Of a stretch of DNA of 64,000 nucleotides, positions 3,172 through 25,867 are shown piece after piece. The stretch is from positions 221,883-285,882 of the forward strand of contig JAFTRI010000023.1 in assembly GCA_017462345.1 (NCBI GenBank), in the 5' to 3' direction. Origin of the DNA: Muribaculaceae bacterium (GTDB lineage: Bacteria; Bacteroidota; Bacteroidia; Bacteroidales; Muribaculaceae). Under the pieces are notes generated by a model. The model saw nothing but the letters and a program-made list of their open reading frames with translations, made no database searches and was not told the DNA's origin. The position numbers and the translations under genes are program-made. Positions within the stretch are counted from its first letter, which is position 1. Every line of letters begins with the position of its first letter.

Positions 3172-3975
3172 TTATTTGTTTCCTATTATTTCAATCAGTT
3201 TTACGTCAAAGTCGAGTACCGAGTTTCCGGGTATGACGCCGTCAATCCCTTTTTTTCCGTATCCGAGCGATGCGGGGATAAACAGCCGGTAGCTGCCACC
3301 CGGTTTCATCATCAGCAATCCCTCGGTAAAACCTTTTACGAGCCGGTTGACGTCAAATGTCACGGGCTCGTCGGTAGAGTCGAATACCGTACCGTCCGAC
3401 AGGCGTCCGGTGTAGGTGACTTTTACCTTATCGGTCAAGGACGGGTGTTGCTGTCCCGTTCCGTCGGTGATGACTTCGAACAGCAGTCCCGACGATGTCT
3501 TTATAACGCTTTTCCTCTCAAGTTGTTTGTTAAGGAATTCCTGTTGTGATGAGATGCTGACGGTATCGGGTGCGGTGTTGCGTCCGAGATAGGAATTAAG
3601 ATAGGCATCGGCACTTTTGCGGTCGAATCCTGTGGACTTTCCGGCAAGGGCGTCACGGAGACTGTTGCAGAAATTCTCCACGTCGACCGGCAACCCCATT
3701 TCCTGTATCTGCTTGATGCGCTGTGAGAGTACCATCCCTTCCGATAATCCGCGCAGATAGGGCGCTTCGGATGCCGGAGTGGAAAATGCCTTGCACAGTC
3801 CGCGCAGGAACTCGTTTCTTGACACGCTGTCGTTGGCGGGATATGCGCGGTCGAGTTGCGGCCGCAGATACTCGCCCCACACCGTGGCTGTGGCTGCCGA
3901 AACCGAGTCGGTCGTCTCGGCTGCGGTGGATATGCCGGCAACGAGTACAAGTGACAGAAATACCGGTAGTCTCAT
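3172..3975 (-). CDS. Periplasmic FKBP-type peptidyl-prolyl cis-trans isomerase
   Basis: 267 residues with a cleavable signal peptide (about residues 1-19, ending in AGISTAA). A helical N-terminal region is followed by a C-terminal FKBP domain from about residue 165 to 264. The catalytic pocket motif GTVFDST and the loop LGYGKKGIDGVIPGNS are intact, so it should be an active isomerase that folds periplasmic or outer membrane proteins. It starts 4 bases after the cytoplasmic FKBP stop and precedes the lipoprotein FKBP, a tight three-gene operon. Confidence 0.87.
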   Translation of the reverse strand: MRLPVFLSLVLVAGISTAAETTDSVSAATATVWGEYLRPQLDRAYPANDSVSRNEFLRGLCKAFSTPASEAPYLRGLSEGMVLSQRIKQIQEMGLPVDVENFCNSLRDALAGKSTGFDRKSADAYLNSYLGRNTAPDTVSISSQQEFLNKQLERKSVIKTSSGLLFEVITDGTGQQHPSLTDKVKVTYTGRLSDGTVFDSTDEPVTFDVNRLVKGFTEGLLMMKPGGSYRLFIPASLGYGKKGIDGVIPGNSVLDFDVKLIEIIGNK

Positions 3976-3979
3976 ACTG

Positions 3980-4606
3980 CTATTTGCCTACGACTTTCAA
4001 CAGTTCGACATCAAAAATCAATGTGGCGTTGGGACCTATGATATTGCCTGCCCCGTTGGCTCCGTAGGCAAGGTTTCCGGGGATATAAAGACGCCATTGC
4101 GAGCCGGATTTCATCATCTGGAGTGCCTCGACCCATCCGGCAATAACCTGTGTGACGCCGAATGTTGCAGGTTCTCCGCGTTCAACCGAACTGTCAAATA
4201 CCGTTCCGTCGATCAGTTTTCCGGTGTAGTGGACGACAACCTGGTCACTTGCCGATGGCATTGCCCCGTCACCTTCCTTGAGTACCTCATATTGCAATCC
4301 GCTTGCGGTGGTGTGCACTTCGGCACGTTTGCCGTTTTCGGTGAGGAATTTTTCCCCGGCGGCTTGATTCACCTTGGCCATTTCTTTTGCTGCCTCCTGT
4401 TGCTTTGCTTCCATCGCTTGGAAAAAGTCACGGATTTCGGCCTTCGCCTCATCGTAGGTCATCTTGGGTGTTGCTCCGTCGAATACAGCGGCGACACCGT
4501 CGGCAAAGTCCTTTACGTTTATGGTCTGTATGCCGGAACTCTTGAAGTTATTGCCCATGCTGAGTCCTAAGGCATAGCTTATACGATCTAATTCTTTATT
4601 ATCCAT
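3980..4606 (-). CDS. FKBP-type peptidyl-prolyl cis-trans isomerase, FklB/Mip-like, no signal peptide
   Basis: 208 residues from the ATG at 4604-4606 (MDNKELDRISYALG). An upstream in-frame ATG at 4639 is rejected because the promoter -7 box overlaps it. No signal peptide is visible, so a cytoplasmic enzyme is likely. The N-terminal helical dimerisation domain covers about residues 1-100 and the FKBP domain about 110-208, with catalytic motif GTVFDSS and loop LAYGANGAGNIIGPNA intact. It is the first gene of the three-FKBP operon and carries the only recognisable promoter of that operon. Confidence 0.88.
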   Translation of the reverse strand: MDNKELDRISYALGLSMGNNFKSSGIQTINVKDFADGVAAVFDGATPKMTYDEAKAEIRDFFQAMEAKQQEAAKEMAKVNQAAGEKFLTENGKRAEVHTTASGLQYEVLKEGDGAMPSASDQVVVHYTGKLIDGTVFDSSVERGEPATFGVTQVIAGWVEALQMMKSGSQWRLYIPGNLAYGANGAGNIIGPNATLIFDVELLKVVGK

Positions 4607-18212: not shown

Positions 18213-19484
18213 ATGCTAACAATATAACAGATAAAAGAAGATCCTGCTCTGATAGTCAAGAAACTTGCGGTAAAGGGTTTTGACGGGACGGAAGCGATAG
18301 AGAAGATATTGGTGCTTGACACTCAACGTCGTGAGTCCCAGTTGAAAAATGATAATCAGGCAGCAGAACTCAATAAGTATGCCGCAACTATCGGCAAGCT
18401 GATGAAGGAGGGCAAGAAAGCCGAAGCCGAGGAGGCCAAGATTGCTGTTGCCTCGCTTAAGGAATCGCAGAAGGCAATTGCCGAGGAGCTGGCACGTATC
18501 GAAACCGAGATACGGAACATTCTTCTGACAATTCCGAATATTCCATGCGACATGGTGCCTGAAGGTAAGACCGCTGAGGATAATGTGGTTGAGAAAACCG
18601 GTGGGAACATGCCCCAACTTCCTGCTGATGCACTTCCCCATTGGGATCTTGCCAAGAAATATAATCTCATCGATTTTGATCTCGGGGTGAAGATTACGGG
18701 AGCAGGTTTCCCGGTGTATATCGGAAAGGGTGCACGCTTGCAACGTGCCTTGATCCAATTTTTCCTTGATGAGGCAGGTAAGGCCGGATATCTTGAAGTA
18801 CAGCCGCCCTACGTGGTGAATGAGGCTTCGGGCTACGGTACCGGGCAGCTTCCCGACAAGGAAGGGCAGATGTATCATTGCCAGCTTGACAATCTCTATC
18901 TTATCCCTACGGCCGAAGTCCCCGTAACCAATATCTATCGTGATGTGATCCTTAATGACAGTCAGTTGCCGATAAAGAATTGTGCCTACTCGGCATGTTT
19001 CCGTCGTGAAGCCGGGAGTTACGGCAAAGATGTGCGGGGGCTGAACCGTCTGCACCAGTTTGACAAGGTTGAGATCGTGCGTATCGAGAAGCCGGAAAAC
19101 TCATACTCTGCGCTTGAGGAGATGAAGGATCATGTGCAAGGCTTGCTTGATAAACTCGGGTTGCCGTGGCACATCCTGCGCCTGTGTGGTGGTGACATGA
19201 GTTTCACATCGGCCATAACATTTGACTTCGAGGTATATTCGGCTGCACAGCAGCGTTGGCTTGAAGTATCATCGGTTTCCAATTTTGAGACCTATCAGGC
19301 CAACCGTCTGAAATGCCGTTACCGTGGGGAGGACAAGAAAACCCGTCTGTGCCATACGCTTAACGGATCGGCTCTTGCCCTGCCGCGCATCATGGCGGCA
19401 CTGCTTGAAAACAATCAGACAGCCGAGGGAATCGTTGTTCCCGAATGTCTCCGCCGCTACACCGGCTTCGACATCATCGCCTGA
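18213..19484 (+). CDS. serS: Seryl-tRNA synthetase with an in-frame TAA at codon 5
   Basis: The enzyme charges tRNA-Ser with serine. Family alignment from memory puts the start at the ATG at 18213: M-L-T-I, then TAA (18225-18227), then QIKEDPALIVKKLAVKGFD, which is the usual N-terminus. The codon is most likely AAA (Lys) in relatives. The next possible start is a TTG at 18309, which would remove 32 residues at the base of the coiled-coil arm that holds tRNA. The rest is intact: coiled-coil arm, class II motif 2 (CFRREAGSYGKDVRGLNR) and motif 3 (LNGSALALPRIMAALLEN). The gene is normally essential and single-copy, so a sequence error, suppression or restart must be considered. Confidence 0.88.
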
Positions 19485-19506
19485 ACCCCGGACTGACAAC
19501 GATATC

Positions 19507-19544
19507 GCGACGCCACATTCTAAAATAAAGGGATGTGGCGTCGC
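19507..19544. other. 12-bp perfect inverted repeat after serS
   Basis: GCGACGCCACAT (19507-19518) pairs with ATGTGGCGTCGC (19533-19544) around a 14-base loop. No uridine run follows on the plus strand, so it may be a Rho-dependent stop aid or an mRNA 3-prime hairpin. From here to 19715 I see nothing else. Confidence 0.6.
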
Positions 19545-19715
19545 TCGTTAAGTCTATGCCCTTAAGAGTATCCGAACTTGCAATTAAAAAAGGATACCGA
19601 AATCTCCATGAGATTAAATGATTTTGATTTGCTGTCAGATGTTACAAAGATTCTATGGTGTGAATAAAATTTTAGAATAGAAATAGATGACGGAATGGTT
19701 ATCTGAAAAAATGCT

Positions 19716-19723
19716 TATATTTG
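19716..19723 (+). promoter_or_regulatory. -7 promoter box of the candidate structured RNA
   Basis: TATATTTG followed by C, a perfect Bacteroidota -7 element in a non-coding stretch. Transcription would start near 19730. A -33 TTTG is not obvious. Confidence 0.6.
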
Positions 19724-19729
19724 CAAAAT

Positions 19730-20028
19730 ATTCCACGCCAAGTATCCCAAGAGAGGGAGAGGGTGGGATAGTCATATAATAGGAAAGACGTTTACTTGAC
19801 GTTTTGTTTTGACGCTTCGAAACTTCGCAAACTTTGAATCTGTCTAAAAACAATGCAGCGGTAGATGTCTGCGGGATATGTAATATCTTGATGTGCTTTG
19901 TAGAAATACAAGGTGCGGTTATACATATCGGCGTGGGCTTCGACGTTGCTCGTTCTTGACAGATTGGGCAATGCGAAGGCCTCGAAGCGTGGAACGAGCT
20001 ACAGTGCTGATTCCCACGCTTTCTTTTT
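19730..20028 (+). ncRNA. Candidate structured non-coding RNA or 5-prime leader (about 300 nt)
   Basis: This stretch has a promoter at its 5-prime end and a terminator-like end, with many perfect complementary segments between. Hairpin 1 is 19743-19748 with 19765-19770. A nested long-range helix joins 19812-19820 with 19982-19990 (9 bp), 19823-19829 with 19972-19978 (7 bp) and 19837-19844 with 19958-19965 (8 bp). A domain at 19875-19882 with 19922-19929 (8 bp) encloses a GAAA-tetraloop hairpin (19896-19902 with 19907-19913). A final stem joins 19931-19937 with 20013-20019 and 19949-19955 with 19992-19998, ending in TTTCTTTTT. The long-range helix occupies almost the whole loop of the final stem, so the two either form a pseudoknot or switch. 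I do not recognise the family. Confidence 0.6.
20013..20028 (+). terminator. Terminator-like 3-prime arm and U tract of the candidate RNA
   Basis: CCCACGC (20013-20019) pairs with GCGTGGG (19931-19937) and is followed at once by a nine-base T-rich run (20020-20028). It lies 80 bases before the LPP20 gene, so it could end a free RNA or attenuate the operon. Confidence 0.5.
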
Positions 20029-20108
20029 ATGTGTAACCCTAAAAACATATTGCAAAAATATTGTTCCGAGCCGGGAATCATCGGAAATACTAAAAATTAT
20101 AATCGGTT

Positions 20109-20717
20109 ATGAAAAATTTAGGTAAGATTCTCGTATCGGTATCTATCGTAGTGCTTTTATGCAGTTGTGGAGGCTCAAAGAAGGCGTCAGTTCAGCCGCA
20201 GCAGTCCCAATGGAATGTTGCACCGGAAATGAAATTAGCTGACAATGAATGTATCGAGTTGCAACACCAAAAACCGGATATCAGAGCATACGGAGAGGGG
20301 GTGAGCACACGTGAATCAAGGGCAATGGCATTTGCGGAAACACAAGCCCGCGCACAATTTAGGAGAAGTATTGAGAGTGCCGTAAAGACGGCTCAAAGTG
20401 AAGATGGGGTGAGATATGAGAATAATGCCGGAGCAGATAATGCCGGGATGTCAAATGATATGACTATTAATATTGCCGAGGGGGTTGTGAAAAATATGGT
20501 AATTATAAAAACAGAGCGTTTCATGCGTCCTGACGGTTCCTATCATGTATATGTCTGTCTTGAGTACAAAGGTGATAGAAAATCTCTTGCAGATGAAATT
20601 ACTCAGCGTGCCAAGCAGCAAGTATCAGACGATGAACGATTGAAAATGCAGTATGATTTCAATAAGTTCCGTGAACGTGTAGAGGAGGAATTAGCAAAAC
20701 AAAAAGCCCAACAGTAG
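20109..20717 (+). CDS. LPP20-family lipoprotein
   Basis: 202 residues with lipobox LLCSC (Cys20), then GGSKKAS, not acidic, suggesting a periplasmic-facing lipoprotein. An LPP20-like domain spans about residues 50-165: DIRAYGEGVSTRESRAMAF then AETQARAQFRRSIE. The end is a charged helix (ERVEEELAKQKAQQ). LPP20 proteins are membrane-associated lipoproteins of poorly known function. It is the first gene of a four-gene operon and follows the candidate structured RNA by 80 bases. Confidence 0.8.
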   Translation: MKNLGKILVSVSIVVLLCSCGGSKKASVQPQQSQWNVAPEMKLADNECIELQHQKPDIRAYGEGVSTRESRAMAFAETQARAQFRRSIESAVKTAQSEDGVRYENNAGADNAGMSNDMTINIAEGVVKNMVIIKTERFMRPDGSYHVYVCLEYKGDRKSLADEITQRAKQQVSDDERLKMQYDFNKFRERVEEELAKQKAQQ

Positions 20718-20725
20718 TTGTACCC

Positions 20726-22582
20726 ATGCTGAAAAAAATAGTACTATTAGCTTGTGCCTTGTCGGTATTGTCTGTCAAGGCGCAAGTTGATATTCAAAAG
20801 ATAAAAAAAGATACTGCATATATTTGGGCAGAAGGAATTGGCACTACGTTTGACGAGGCTGATAGTGACGCATTGAGAAAATTGAGCAGTCAGATATGGA
20901 CGTTTATTAAGGCAGACGTGATTGATGGAGATGAAATACAGAGAGTATTTATATCATCGTTTACTTCCAATACCATTTCCAATGGCCGAATGCTTGAACT
21001 TGCTCCCGAGCCTGAATGCCGCATTTTCCGATACGTACACGAGGATGATGTCAAGAAGATGCAGGACGACAAAAGGCTTCGTATCGTTGATCTTGTAAAG
21101 GCTGGACAAAATGCGGAATCGAGATTACAGATTGACGATGCTTTGCGTAACTATTATTGGGCTTTGATGTTAAGTAAATCACACACCGAGCCGGTATATG
21201 TAGAACTTGGAGGGAAAAATGTAGAGTGCAAGGCTGAGCTGCCGGCAAAAATCAAGTCGGTTCTGAGTGGGATAAAGGCTGAGCTTGTTGAATGCAAGGA
21301 ACAGAACGGGATTCATACAGCCCGTATGCATTTCACTTATCTTGATCATGATGTGGCATCGTTACAGTTGAGGTATGATAATGGACAGGCCTTTATCGGA
21401 CCGCTGGCTGTGCGTGATGGTGTTGGCGAGTTTGACCTGGTGGAACTACCTAAGAATAACAAGTTAATGTTGCGCTATGAATACAGATTTGCAGAAGAGG
21501 CTAAACATCTAAATGAGGAATTGGAAGCGGTAATTAAAGGGATAAAGGCTTATTCCATTGATTCGAGGGTCGAGATTCCGGTTAAGGTAAATGCCAAAAA
21601 AGGCAAAATGACGGCAGTAAAATCCAAAGAAACAGCCAATACGGGACAACCAATGTCGGATTATAAGGAAGTCTTACCCGAAAATATTAAGATTCGTGAG
21701 CGTATAAAAGAAGATGAGGTTGAAGATTCGCGTGTATATATGCAAGCAGTATCTCTTGTAGAAAACGCTATCATAAAATCATCACCCGATATTGCCCGGA
21801 GTTGTTTTACCGATGACGGGTACAAGATGTTCAATACTTTGTTGACAAAGACGGGACGTGTTACGATTTCGGGAGAACAAGATTACTCGTTCGTTAAAGC
21901 TGGAGATCAGGTGTTGGGCCGTTCCTGCAATATAAAAATCAAGTTCAGCAACGGTCGTACTTATATGGAAAAGCTGGTGTTCAGATTCAATCCAATAAGC
22001 CATAAAATCCAGTCGATTGCACTCAGATTGACTAAAAAGGCGGAAGATGATATATTTAATGCCAAGTCCCCATGGGGCGAAATCAGCCGATATACCATTC
22101 TGCAGTTTATGGAGGATTATCAGACGGCATTTGCTTTGAAAAGACATGATTATCTCACAAGTATATTTTCTGACAGTGCATTGATTATTACCGGGGCGGT
22201 TCTTAAGCCGACAATCGGGAAATTTAATGACGGCAGAGAGATTGATTTTAGAGGAAATAAGAATGTGAGGTACGTGAAACATACCAAGCAAGAGTATCTT
22301 AAGAAACTTAAAAGACACTTTGATACAAGGGAGTATATTCACTTGACTTTTGAAAATAATATAACCGGAGTAGTCAATACCAATGGAGTTTTAAGAGACG
22401 ATGCTGCATTTGCTATACAGATACGGCAGTTTTATGATTCTCCTAAGTATTCTGACAGGGGCTATCTGACACTATTCCTTAATATGCAGGGAAAGTATCC
22501 TATAATTGAAGTGCGGTTGTGGCAGCCGGAACAGGATGTCATATCTTATGAAGATTTTAAAAAAGTATTTTATGTAAAATAA
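20726..22582 (+). CDS. Exported protein with LPP20-like and NTF2-like regions, function unknown
   Basis: 618 residues with a signal peptide (about 1-19, ALSVLSVKA). The N-terminal part (about 28-140) resembles LPP20 domains: YIWAEGIGTTFDEADSDAL mirrors the start of the upstream lipoprotein. A middle beta-rich region follows. Two later segments, about 345-445 and 455-610, look like NTF2/SnoaL-type alpha-beta domains (for example DYQTAFALKRHDYLTSIF). I found no enzyme motif. It starts 8 bases after the LPP20 gene and 9 bases before the next gene, so it is almost certainly part of the same envelope system. Confidence 0.72.
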   Translation: MLKKIVLLACALSVLSVKAQVDIQKIKKDTAYIWAEGIGTTFDEADSDALRKLSSQIWTFIKADVIDGDEIQRVFISSFTSNTISNGRMLELAPEPECRIFRYVHEDDVKKMQDDKRLRIVDLVKAGQNAESRLQIDDALRNYYWALMLSKSHTEPVYVELGGKNVECKAELPAKIKSVLSGIKAELVECKEQNGIHTARMHFTYLDHDVASLQLRYDNGQAFIGPLAVRDGVGEFDLVELPKNNKLMLRYEYRFAEEAKHLNEELEAVIKGIKAYSIDSRVEIPVKVNAKKGKMTAVKSKETANTGQPMSDYKEVLPENIKIRERIKEDEVEDSRVYMQAVSLVENAIIKSSPDIARSCFTDDGYKMFNTLLTKTGRVTISGEQDYSFVKAGDQVLGRSCNIKIKFSNGRTYMEKLVFRFNPISHKIQSIALRLTKKAEDDIFNAKSPWGEISRYTILQFMEDYQTAFALKRHDYLTSIFSDSALIITGAVLKPTIGKFNDGREIDFRGNKNVRYVKHTKQEYLKKLKRHFDTREYIHLTFENNITGVVNTNGVLRDDAAFAIQIRQFYDSPKYSDRGYLTLFLNMQGKYPIIEVRLWQPEQDVISYEDFKKVFYVK

Positions 22583-22591
22583 ATAAGAACT

Positions 22592-24373
22592 ATGAGAAGA
22601 ATAATTTTAGTGGCGATGTGCCTTGTCGGAGTCCTTTTTGCCCATAGCAAAAATCCACAGCAACTGGAGTTCCATTCATTCAAGGAGGCAAGTAATGAGT
22701 CAGGGGTTAACCTGATTGTACAAATGATCGGAAATGACTGGCCTTCAGATTCAAAATCAGACGAAGATGCAGCACTGATAAGGGTAAAATTGGAAAATAT
22801 ACCTATGGTTGATGCGGGTAAAGTGATTTTTAAAACATCATCAAATGGTTATGTACGGGTGGACGATTCCAGATTGGAAAGACTTAATGAGATATGGTTA
22901 TGGTGTGATCCTATTGCCGCAACATATATAACAGCAGAATATAACGGAAATGCCACGACCCAAACAATTTCTGACCGTTTGAAACCAAAAAGCGTATATG
23001 AAATTGTGCTGAAAAACAATAAGACGGTATCATTAAACGTGGAAACGCTTCCTCGCGACGGTGTTGTCGTGGAAATTGAAACGGGACAAAAGGCCGTGAC
23101 CCCAGATCAGATACACGGAGTGTCTCTCGGTAAGCACACATTAAAAATAAGCTATAAAGGAAAACTTTACGTTACTGAGACAATTGATGTCACGGAGACA
23201 AATACGAAATTCGGACCGTATGACTTGAGACAAAAGAAAAATATAAAATTTACAAGCGATCCGGAGGGTGCGATTATTAAATTATACATAGATGGAAAAG
23301 AAACCGAGCTTGGAAAGGCCTATAACGACAAGAACAGACGGCTGAATAAGGATTTGGCTTATGGCTCATACCGAGTGGAGGCTATAATCAGTCCGACAGA
23401 AACAGATGTCAAGGATTTTACTGTTGATGAAAATTCAGTGGACGAGATAAAGTTGGAGCCAATAAAGAAAAAGACGTTTCAGGTGTCGGCTACTTATGGC
23501 GGAAATCCGGTAAACGCGACATTATATGTTGATGGAAAACAGATAACTCCGACAAATCAGGCTTCCTATCAGTTGACATATCCGATAGGCAAGACTTATG
23601 AAATGGAAATGTTTCATTACAACAACAGTAAGAAAAGAAAGATCAAGGTGAAAAGCGGCATGAATACCAAACAAGTTTTTGATATTTCATCGAAGAGTTC
23701 ACATTCTTTTGCGTGGCCGTGGGAAAGGGATTTCAATCCTACAATCGCAGGTGTTTCAATAGGTTATGTTTCGAAACAATATGTAACAACCGGATATGGA
23801 GAAAAGCTAAAAGAAAATATTTGGGGCGAGCCAAATAAGTCAATGCATGGCTTATCTTTTGGATTCCATTTTACTCCTGCCTTTCAGTGGGGATTAGGAC
23901 TTTATACAGGATTGTCTTATGAACTTTATTTTTCATCAACTGATATGAGTGAATGGGATCCATACGAACTGGCGATAGAACATTGTCTATACTTGCCTGT
24001 GCATGCATATTACAGGCTCCGTCTTGGCGAGAACTGTCACATTGCTATTCATGGTGGAGTGGGGTTTGATTATGCTGTGGCAGGAACATTGTCGGCTCCC
24101 TCTTCAGACTCTGATACATATTCTTATGATTATTATGAGGTCGGGTATGATGATATTTCAGTTCCTTATGGAGATGATGCATGGCCGAAACGTTTCAATA
24201 TCTCAGGTGAAATAGCATTGGATTTCCGAATTAAATCAGTGATGTTGACTGCATTATATTCACGCGGAATAACTGATCACAAGATGTATAGGTATTTGGG
24301 CGATGAGTATAAAAGTAAGCAAAACAAATTGGGAATATCCATTTCTTGGGTAATATCGACAGGTCGGTATTAA
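22592..24373 (+). CDS. Exported PEGA-domain protein with C-terminal outer membrane barrel-like region
   Basis: 593 residues with a signal peptide (about 1-19, CLVGVLFAHS). Several Ig-like or PEGA-type segments follow (TSDPEGAIIKLYIDGKE at about 226-242, and another at about 300-320 with NATLYVDGKQI). From about residue 385 to the end, alternating aromatic beta strands and glycines (LSFGFHFTPAFQWGLGLYTG, GVGFDYAVAG, KLGISISWVI) look like an 8-10-strand outer membrane barrel. The predicted arrangement is a barrel in the outer membrane with periplasmic Ig-like domains. It lies between the LPP20-type genes and the transglutaminase-like gene with 9 to 12 base gaps. Confidence 0.75.
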   Translation: MRRIILVAMCLVGVLFAHSKNPQQLEFHSFKEASNESGVNLIVQMIGNDWPSDSKSDEDAALIRVKLENIPMVDAGKVIFKTSSNGYVRVDDSRLERLNEIWLWCDPIAATYITAEYNGNATTQTISDRLKPKSVYEIVLKNNKTVSLNVETLPRDGVVVEIETGQKAVTPDQIHGVSLGKHTLKISYKGKLYVTETIDVTETNTKFGPYDLRQKKNIKFTSDPEGAIIKLYIDGKETELGKAYNDKNRRLNKDLAYGSYRVEAIISPTETDVKDFTVDENSVDEIKLEPIKKKTFQVSATYGGNPVNATLYVDGKQITPTNQASYQLTYPIGKTYEMEMFHYNNSKKRKIKVKSGMNTKQVFDISSKSSHSFAWPWERDFNPTIAGVSIGYVSKQYVTTGYGEKLKENIWGEPNKSMHGLSFGFHFTPAFQWGLGLYTGLSYELYFSSTDMSEWDPYELAIEHCLYLPVHAYYRLRLGENCHIAIHGGVGFDYAVAGTLSAPSSDSDTYSYDYYEVGYDDISVPYGDDAWPKRFNISGEIALDFRIKSVMLTALYSRGITDHKMYRYLGDEYKSKQNKLGISISWVISTGRY

Positions 24374-24385
24374 TTTGGTTAGTTT

Positions 24386-25867
24386 ATGAAAATTAAATTT
24401 GTAAAGGTGTTGTTGTTCGCTTTTACAACTGCTGTTGCGGGAGCGAACACTCCTTCCTATGACAGTTATAGGGAGAAAATGAGTGGAGAATTTGAGCGAT
24501 TCAAGAAGAACGCTCTGTCTGAATATGAGAGTTTCAGAAAAAAGGCAAATGATGATTATGCCGAGTTTTTGAAAAGATCGTGGGAGCAGTTTGATGCCCT
24601 TAAATCTCCTCATAAGCCCAAAGACGATAAACCTGTTCCACCCAAGCCTTACCAAGAAGATGAAACTCCGATAAAAGATACTCCGTTGCCTTTTAAGGAT
24701 ATTGTAAAGCCACAACCGCCGGAGCCACAACCGCTACCTGTGAAACCTATTGAACCGGTCACGGTAGTGGATGAATGGCATAAATTTTCATTCTATGGTA
24801 CGGACATGAAAGTGAGATTGGCAAAAAACATGCGATTCACTCTTAAAGGTTGTGATGGCAATGCAATTGCAGCGGGATGGAAAATCCTATCTCAGCAGAA
24901 GTACAATAATCTGATAAACGATTGTCTTGAAATCCGTAAGGATTGTGGGTTGTGTGATTGGGGTTATCTGATGATGCTTAGGGAAATGTCCCGCTCATTT
25001 ATGGGGGGAGATTGTAATGAAGCCAGATTGCTGATGGCCTATGTTTATTGCCAATCAGGATATAAGATGAAGCTTGCCAATAGTAAGAAGCGGTTGTATA
25101 TGTTATATGCCAGCCGGCATGTCATGTATGATAATTCTTACTTTCTGATTGATGGAGCCAATTATTATCCTCTCGATTGTGATGAAGATAGGATATACGT
25201 CAACGATGCATCATTTCCCAATGAACAGCCTTTGTCGTTATATATGGCAAGGATACCGAAATTGGGCGTTGAGAACACGCCGGATAGGCAGTTGTCCTCA
25301 AAACGCTATGCGGAAGCCAATGCCGTTGTGTCAACCAATAAAAATCTGATTGAATTTTACGGGACATACCCGGCATCGGAAGTAGGAAATAATTTTATGA
25401 CAAAATGGGCAATGTATGCTAATACTCCTATTAGCGATCAAGCACGGCTGTCTTTATATCCCCGATTGAAAAATTCCATTTCAGGAAAGACGCAACAACA
25501 GTCAGTGGAAATATTGCTGAATTTCGTACAGACGGCATTTGTATATGGATATGATTCAAAAATATGGGGTTATGACAGAGCTTTTTTTGCTGATGAAACT
25601 CTATTCTATCCATATAGCGATTGTGAAGACCGGTCAATATTATTTTCGCGATTAGTGAGAGATCTGGTCGGTCTTAGTGTAGTGTTAGTGTATTATCCGG
25701 GTCATTTGGCAACGGCTGTGGAGTTCTCCACAATGGTAAAAGGTGACTATCTGTCGATAGATGGGAGAAAATTTGTCGTATGTGATCCGACATATATCGG
25801 AGCTCCGGTTGGGCGAACGATGCCGGATATGGATAATTCCGTTGCTAAGGTGATATTATTGGAGTAG
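24386..25867 (+). CDS. Exported transglutaminase-like cysteine protein
   Basis: 493 residues with a signal peptide (about 1-20). A coiled, charged N-terminal segment (about 25-75) and a proline-rich linker (about 80-130, PPKPYQEDETP and PPEPQPLPVKP) lead to a C-terminal transglutaminase-like fold. The catalytic triad is visible: Cys413 in SDCEDRS, His440 in PGHLATAV and Asp467 in CDPTY. Bacterial members of this fold cleave or cross-link peptides, often in the envelope. It is the last gene of the operon, and a strong terminator follows. The proline-rich arm suggests that it reaches across the periplasm, which is inference. Confidence 0.8.
   Translation: MKIKFVKVLLFAFTTAVAGANTPSYDSYREKMSGEFERFKKNALSEYESFRKKANDDYAEFLKRSWEQFDALKSPHKPKDDKPVPPKPYQEDETPIKDTPLPFKDIVKPQPPEPQPLPVKPIEPVTVVDEWHKFSFYGTDMKVRLAKNMRFTLKGCDGNAIAAGWKILSQQKYNNLINDCLEIRKDCGLCDWGYLMMLREMSRSFMGGDCNEARLLMAYVYCQSGYKMKLANSKKRLYMLYASRHVMYDNSYFLIDGANYYPLDCDEDRIYVNDASFPNEQPLSLYMARIPKLGVENTPDRQLSSKRYAEANAVVSTNKNLIEFYGTYPASEVGNNFMTKWAMYANTPISDQARLSLYPRLKNSISGKTQQQSVEILLNFVQTAFVYGYDSKIWGYDRAFFADETLFYPYSDCEDRSILFSRLVRDLVGLSVVLVYYPGHLATAVEFSTMVKGDYLSIDGRKFVVCDPTYIGAPVGRTMPDMDNSVAKVILLE

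Follow-up and report, generated by a model that had tools for sequence, protein, structure and literature searches.

A structured RNA lies on the + strand at 19716-20028 of the 64-kb stretch of Muribaculaceae DNA analysed here (the window), between serS (18309-19484) and a gene of 202 aa (20109-20717), both of which are also on the + strand. It opens with a promoter box, TATATTTG (19716-19723), fitting the box TANNTTTG, which we take to be the consensus of the Bacteroidetes -7 promoter box, and it ends in a T-rich, terminator-like tract, CTTTCTTTTT (20019-20028); a preliminary description of this RNA had named both the promoter box and the closing T-run, and both are present. Directly 3' of serS, a GC-rich inverted repeat noticed by eye, GCGACGCCACAT/ATGTGGCGTCGC (19507-19544), is perhaps the terminator of that gene, in which case the RNA would be its own transcription unit. 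The 202-aa gene, which by eye has a lipoprotein-like N-terminus, is the first of four co-directional ORFs that follow the RNA (20109-25867; 202, 618, 593 and 493 aa); three of these, the 202-aa gene among them, have no Pfam match, and one has a sub-threshold match to an outer-membrane beta-barrel.

The + strand has a folding energy of -114.8 kcal/mol, against -82.1 (sd 3.5) in 100 dinucleotide shuffles (z -9.4), and the opposite (-) strand has a z of -3.9. All named helices of the RNA were verified base by base within the window. The preliminary description had recognised no known family, and this agrees with a search of Rfam 15, which gave no match at the gathering threshold across the 64-kb window and, at E <= 10, just two irrelevant matches far below threshold in 19480-20120; no tRNA or tmRNA was found in the window. 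Beyond the interval covered by that description stand a hairpin, H8 (20064-20086), and the gene at 20109, and comparison of copies adds that the RNA is multi-copy, that it appears to be nearly always the leader of the following gene, and that H8 is predicted to pair with the 3' arm of the terminator.

Spread and copy number of the RNA family

The RNA, of about 300 nt, represents a multi-copy family: BLASTN finds it at four places in its own genome, and 110 of the 149 genomes examined from this bacterial family, its own counted in, have a match. A covariance model (R1) covering the final 106 bases of the RNA, built from 33 sequences and based on the 3' hairpin P6/P7, finds 10 places in the same genome at E <= 1e-3. 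Across the order, 55 of 295 genomes have matches at E <= 1e-4 (own genome counted in), in a search run with filters that lose weak matches; of 247 genomes drawn from the whole class, 4 have matches at E <= 1e-6, and these all belong to the RNA's own order. A fuller search of eight genomes at E <= 1e-3 gave between 6 and 17 matches per genome, and the weakest among these may have arisen by chance. The 5' domain was modelled by sequence only (R2), because a covariance model of it found no consensus pair, despite P2 and P3 being local hairpins; R2 alone finds 54 places in the eight genomes, 52 of which lie directly 5' of a same-strand R1 match. An exact 17-base core occurs in at least 115 stretches of named genomes and in two of viral contigs, and R1 matches 114 of the 115 listed stretches, the exception being L085 from Cupriavidus, as well as both viral ones.

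Carriers among the matches listed include Bacteroides clarus, B. caecigallinarum, and Parabacteroides, Prevotella, Paludibacteraceae and Muribaculaceae records; three further carriers among them, labelled as Firmicutes, Erysipelotrichaceae and Lachnospiraceae MAGs, are likely to reflect contamination. BLASTN matches also fall on three plasmid records (Phocaeicola dorei, P. vulgatus and Bacteroides finegoldii), and in the two of these that were examined, P. dorei and B. finegoldii, R1 confirms the copies; one unannotated phage record has a match as well. On the 95-kb plasmid of Phocaeicola dorei CL06T03C03, an unannotated copy (L190:4140-4244) lies about 65 bp before a hypothetical gene. The copy of Bacteroides clarus YIT 12056 (L091) shows a 5' domain that is weaker. 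Another contig (L087) carries two copies about 1.2 kb apart, at 2749-2857 and 3953-4061, in which the seed, AAACACCT, and its complement (see below) are identical.

For comparison of copies, 179 unique copies were reduced to 168 by dropping near-duplicates and those with little DNA on the downstream side. Both domains are present in 133 of these, the other 35 being left out for want of the 70-base 5' domain, and a 75% identity cut left 71 sequences for alignment; a further alignment holds 59 of the 71.

Conserved helices and the two partners of one strand

Three nested long-range helices, which had been described as perfect and of 9, 7 and 8 bp, were found with all of their pairs in the window: helix a (19812-19820/19982-19990; 9/9), helix b (19823-19829 CUUCGCA with 19972-19978 UGCGAAG; 7/7) and helix c (19837-19844/19958-19965; 8/8). 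An unsupervised covariation scan of the 133 copies places its top eight column pairs all in helices a and b, with the first covarying pair of helix c at rank 13. All four Watson-Crick types are present in helix a among these copies, and in the 71-sequence alignment it is 96.0% paired and shows changes on both sides in 6 of its 7 pairs, while helix b is 99.1% paired, with such changes in 4 of 6, and is, as far as the alignment tells, a nearly invariant loop-loop contact. The columns of helix c are 49-70% paired, in a stretch with many gaps. Double-substitution events were counted on trees built without the tested columns and set against the mean of 10 shuffles of partners: there are 150 events in helix a versus 25 shuffled, 17 versus 2 in helix b and 64 versus 17 in helix c, with 24, 4 and 116 changes, respectively, to or from the unpaired state. 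The structure as a whole (63 pairs, in a, b, c, P2, P3, P5, P6, P7, P7a and PK2) is 88.8% paired in the 71 sequences, compared with 78.4% in shuffles and 35-50% with partners slid, and two-sided changes occur in 47 of its pairs versus 36 in shuffles. The homologues, which are many, carry compensatory changes in the helices listed earlier, as both the covariation and the event counts indicate.

The 5' domain adds several local elements. P1, a hairpin of TATCCCA/TGGGATA (19743-19770; 7/7 pairs in the window), varies in sequence across the family, and its own strands complement each other better than swapped ones do (p = 4e-11; 104 of the 133 copies, those with the box before P2). P2 (19785-19791/19799-19805) is 96.1% paired in the 71-sequence alignment, and a pseudoknot, PK2, in which 19791-19795 (UUUAC) pairs with 19861-19865 (GUAGA), is 87.4% paired there; covarying pairs in the 133 copies include 19788-19802 in P2 and 19795-19861 in PK2, and PK2 has 15 double-substitution events versus 6 shuffled, with 42 changes to or from unpaired. 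P3 (19807-19848; UUUUGAC/GUCUAAA with 6/7 pairs in the window, CUUGAC/GUCAAG elsewhere), the loop of which holds the 5' strands of helices a, b and c, is 78.2% paired in the 71 sequences, where all 6 of its pairs change on both sides, and has 20 double-substitution events versus 11 shuffled and 86 to or from unpaired. The 8-bp helix P5, GAUAUGUA/UACAUAUC (19875-19929), had been described as capping a hairpin with a GAAA loop; the helix is about 70-78% paired in the alignment and its tip is hypervariable there, so that the GAAA-capped hairpin is not a feature of the family.

Toward the 3' end, P6 (19931-19937/20013-20019) and P7 (19948-19955/19992-19999), the last helices of the preliminary description, together make a terminator-like hairpin (19931-20019), and both hold across the 71 sequences: P6 is 98.4% paired, the upper nine pairs of P7 are 98.9% and its lowest two 84.5% paired, and P7a, within it (19967-19969/19979-19981), is 98.6% paired. 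Double-substitution events number 9 versus 4 shuffled in P6, with 6 changes to or from unpaired, and 28 versus 7 in P7, with 7. The strand 19944-19955, which includes the 5' side of P7, has alternative partners, downstream at 19992-19999 (P7) or upstream at 19849-19860 (P4). The upstream strand, AAC...GCAGCG, pairs with 19944-19949 and 19952-19954 (9/9 pairs in the window), and P4 together with helices a, b and c nests into one long hairpin; with P3 and P7 closed, on topological grounds, helices a, b and c would form just partly, as a kissing contact.

Support for P4 is mixed. It is 89.3% paired in the 71-sequence alignment, and its covariation score lies above 500 of 500 shuffles, but two of five measures do not exceed shuffles, namely the number of pairs with two-sided changes, a level reached by 67 of 500 shuffles, and that of further pair types, reached by 243 of 500. 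It has 19 double-substitution events where shuffles average 12, and 71 changes into or out of the paired state; column 19952 covaries with 19995 (P7) and 19851 (P4) alike. Both partners of the strand thus appear to be supported by evolution, P7 strongly and P4 moderately, which favours the earlier proposal of a pseudoknot or a terminator/antiterminator switch. Nested energies, which leave out pseudoknot energy, favour the P4 form over P6+P7 in 69 of 71 copies, by a median of 13.3 kcal/mol. The P4 form comes to within 2 kcal/mol of the minimum in 50 of these 71 copies and the P6+P7 form in none, so that something must favour the P6+P7 form if termination occurs.

The post-terminator hairpin and the genes served

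Between the T-run and the gene lies H8, TTCCGA[GCCGGGAATCA]TCGGAA (20064-20086), 22 nt before the ATG, with loop bases (20073-20080) that complement, 8/8 in the window, a seed in the 3' arm, UGAUUCCC (20008-20015), three bases of which are shared with the 3' strand of P6. Across the 168 copies, gapless helices between a seed and its own leader score a mean of -12.3 versus -9.8 with swapped partners (p = 2e-28), while control stretches 100-200 nt and 300-400 nt downstream give p = 0.18 and 0.22; in 65 of the 80 best cases the complement lies 20-49 nt past the T-run. Own pairs fall in the top 5% in 45 of 168 copies, with 8 expected, a count that is inflated to some degree, because the control stretches also exceed expectation (20/168 at 100-200 nt and 14/165 at 300-400 nt). 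The gapless helices replaced gapped-duplex energies, which were noisy (-17.4 versus -15.7 kcal/mol, p = 2e-6) and hardly enriched own partners at the top, with a first or second rank for 13 of the 168 copies. When the seed was split, core -27 to -17 alone showed no signal (p = 0.91) and core -17 to -10 alone did (p = 4e-5), so that the full signal needs the joined stretch. It was seen again in 86 copies from 12 genomes when compared with other copies of the same genome (p = 3e-11), the two sets partly overlapping. The complement tends to fall within the loop of a small hairpin, a hairpin-plus-seed score of at least 20 being reached by 118 of 231 copies (51%), compared with 15% with swapped seeds (p = 1e-32). 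Whether the complement is unpaired and inside a locally folded hairpin showed no clear difference between complement sites (32/79) and random places (159/504). Taken over the copies, the H8-seed complementarity covaries, with compensatory change, as judged from sequence comparison; since copies carry different sequence pairs, the pairing can be tested directly.

A co-directional ORF of at least 60 aa follows the RNA in 148 of the 168 dereplicated copies, starting a median of 64 nt (IQR 49-76) past the T-run, some of these ORFs probably being spurious (e.g. L127, L089 and L023, by eye). The other 20 copies comprise 9 with a longer opposite-strand ORF and 11 with no ORF; one copy (L035) is followed by an opposite-strand ORF of about 300 codons and by no co-directional one. 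The 148 downstream proteins fall into 105 clusters. The top 25 families per library include BspA-type leucine-rich repeats (14 proteins) and Cxxx radical-SAM target peptides (6), the latter an NCBIfam family matched by 6 of the 148 ORFs, and also BACON domains, a few methylases and a few defence-like proteins. At the named-genome loci, a crude score finds a hydrophobic N-terminus in 54 of 85 downstream proteins of at least 200 aa versus 150 of 451 other ORFs. Six downstream ORFs (L013, L019, L093, L105, L149 and L154) form one short-protein cluster with a similar N-terminus, ELQSRR-FFKKAAK-ALPILGA, and at four other loci (L037, L067, L094 and L117) the first downstream ORF is, by eye, a similar short helix-turn-helix-like protein. 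As far as these annotations go, the served genes have no evident shared pathway.

This diversity of partners bears on whether the family is a mobile or guide RNA (transposon-borne, retron-type or an omega RNA) that stands before genes by chance. Its multi-copy nature and its matches on three plasmid records, one phage record and two viral contigs would fit such an origin, but the consistent position before co-directional ORFs, the lack of a constant partner and the H8-seed link, which ties each copy to its own flank, make it very improbable.

Matches to TANNTTTG are most frequent 275-375 nt upstream of the RNA's 3' limit in the 148 copies with a downstream ORF, and in a separate count cluster 180-290 nt before the 3' domain, whereas just four were found between -25 and +75 of the RNA end, where promoters of the TANNTTTG type were scored. 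Because the boxes precede the RNA and almost none lie between it and the gene, expression of the latter would seem to require read-through. Among the 119 copies in which its direction could be classed, the ORF upstream runs the same way as the RNA in 69 and the other way in 50, and on this ground it was rejected that the RNA belongs to the 3' UTR of the preceding gene.

The same promoter counts bear on a family of trans-acting small RNAs, in which the terminated RNA of about 300 nt would be the product and the seed would pair with the H8 loop in mRNA leaders, chiefly that of the neighbour. The RNA has its own promoter box and terminator-like end, its seed lies between P6 and P7 and would be mostly unpaired in the terminated form, and the seed-H8 complementarity covaries, all of which would fit such a function. 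However, promoter boxes are nearly absent from the stretch separating the RNA from its gene, so that the target leader would come from the same transcript. Seeds match the leaders of other copies at a score of at least 18 more often within a genome (11%) than between genomes (6%; p = 0.005), compared with 34% for their own leader, and this gives no sign of selected orthogonality; a trans-acting role is accordingly held to be unlikely, and the more specific proposal of orthogonal trans-acting guides is unsupported by the same cross-matches.

Alternatively, the leader might act on translation or mRNA stability, the T-run being a linker and the choice between P6/P7 and H8-seed pairing gating ribosomes or nucleases at the start region. 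The place of H8 between T-run and start codon and the short distance from RNA to ORF start are compatible with this. A ten-base tract with at least 6 T, however, follows the GC-rich stem in 98% of 231 copies, which resembles an intrinsic terminator, and such a mode of action is rated as quite improbable, below a trans-acting role.

Proposed mechanism and comparison with known systems

We regard it as probable that the RNA acts in cis, as a leader that regulates the gene behind it through transcription attenuation. In this mechanism, the promoter at 19716 would start the transcript, and P1, P2 and P3 would fold first. When strand 19944-19955 emerges, it could pair backward with 19849-19860, so that P4 runs on into helices c, b and a (the antiterminated form), or forward with 19992-19999, forming P7 and closing the P6 stem before the T-run (the terminated form), in which the loops of P3 and P7 would be limited to kissing. 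The partner that wins would decide whether polymerase stops at the T-run and an RNA of about 300 nt is released, or continues into the gene. In the latter case H8 would emerge next, and its loop may capture the 3' arm of P6, so that the terminator is kept from re-forming and the read-through form is locked; because H8 emerges after the T-run, it would have no influence on the termination decision itself. Comparison of sequences establishes the family, its helices, the competing pairings (P4 to a moderate degree), the covariation of H8 with the seed and the place of the RNA ahead of genes; we infer the use of the promoter box, termination by P6 and the T-run, antitermination by P4 and locking by H8. 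The lack of relation among the served genes makes a general cell state or a protein a likelier signal than a metabolite of one pathway.

It is more tentatively suggested, and may well prove otherwise, that these leaders are a new class of Bacteroidales RNA switch that acts as a general-purpose gene socket, placing unrelated accessory genes under one signal, with H8 locking read-through. If so, a pseudoknotted device of about 300 nt, present about ten times per genome where it is most abundant, would bring adhesins at the surface, lipoproteins, RiPP-like peptides and DNA methylases under common control, and surface proteins, secreted peptides and DNA-modification genes would be linked by an RNA and not by a protein. 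With such a spread, which includes cultured human-gut species, and with no Rfam match, the RNA would count as one of the larger regulatory RNAs still undescribed in gut bacteria.

Literature searches, in the parts of the sources seen, found no paper that describes this RNA, and the portions consulted of a B. thetaiotaomicron transcriptome paper (PMC7366714) hold no mention of it. Structured RNAs described from Bacteroidetes include Bacteroidales-1 (RF01693), Bacteroides-1 (RF01694) and 6S-flavo (RF01685) (Weinberg et al., 2010; PMC2864571, seen in part), from which the RNA here differs in having no relevant Rfam match. The HMP2 candidate motifs include HMP2_1881, a 108-bp element found mostly in Bacteroidetes, commonly near radical SAM domains, and expressed at 13 of 13 places (Fremin and Bhatt, 2021; PMC8040213, consulted in excerpts). 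Compared by description only, it has the size of the 3' domain of this RNA, the downstream ORFs of which include the six radical-SAM target peptides; the excerpts of that paper contain no description of the RNA as a whole, of its pairing scheme or of H8 (Fremin and Bhatt, 2021).

In having a large, conserved and pseudoknotted RNA with a promoter box, a terminator-like end and a downstream gene, the family resembles riboswitches with an intrinsic-terminator platform, from which it differs in that its many clusters of served genes offer no evident pathway to suggest a ligand, and in its lack of an Rfam match. It shares with T-box leaders a multi-copy nature and a predicted terminator/antiterminator choice, and differs from them, again, in the Rfam result and in that no amino-acid gene family typical of T-boxes stands in the top 25 lists of served genes.

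Attenuators of the trp-leader type follow a 1:2, 2:3 and 3:4 pairing logic. The RNA described here is like them in having a strand with an upstream and a downstream partner, the latter of which closes a terminator-like stem before the gene. It is unlike them in that its alternative helices sit within long-range, kissing and pseudoknotted contacts, and in that a leader peptide from the UAGAUG frame, a candidate that was rejected, is not conserved (AUG in 89 of 231 copies; length 3-73 codons, 5-95%). To our knowledge, no described attenuator has a post-terminator hairpin that complements the terminator arm. An attenuator leader is a known kind of regulator, and it is the architecture of this one, together with its post-terminator hairpin, that is new as far as we know.
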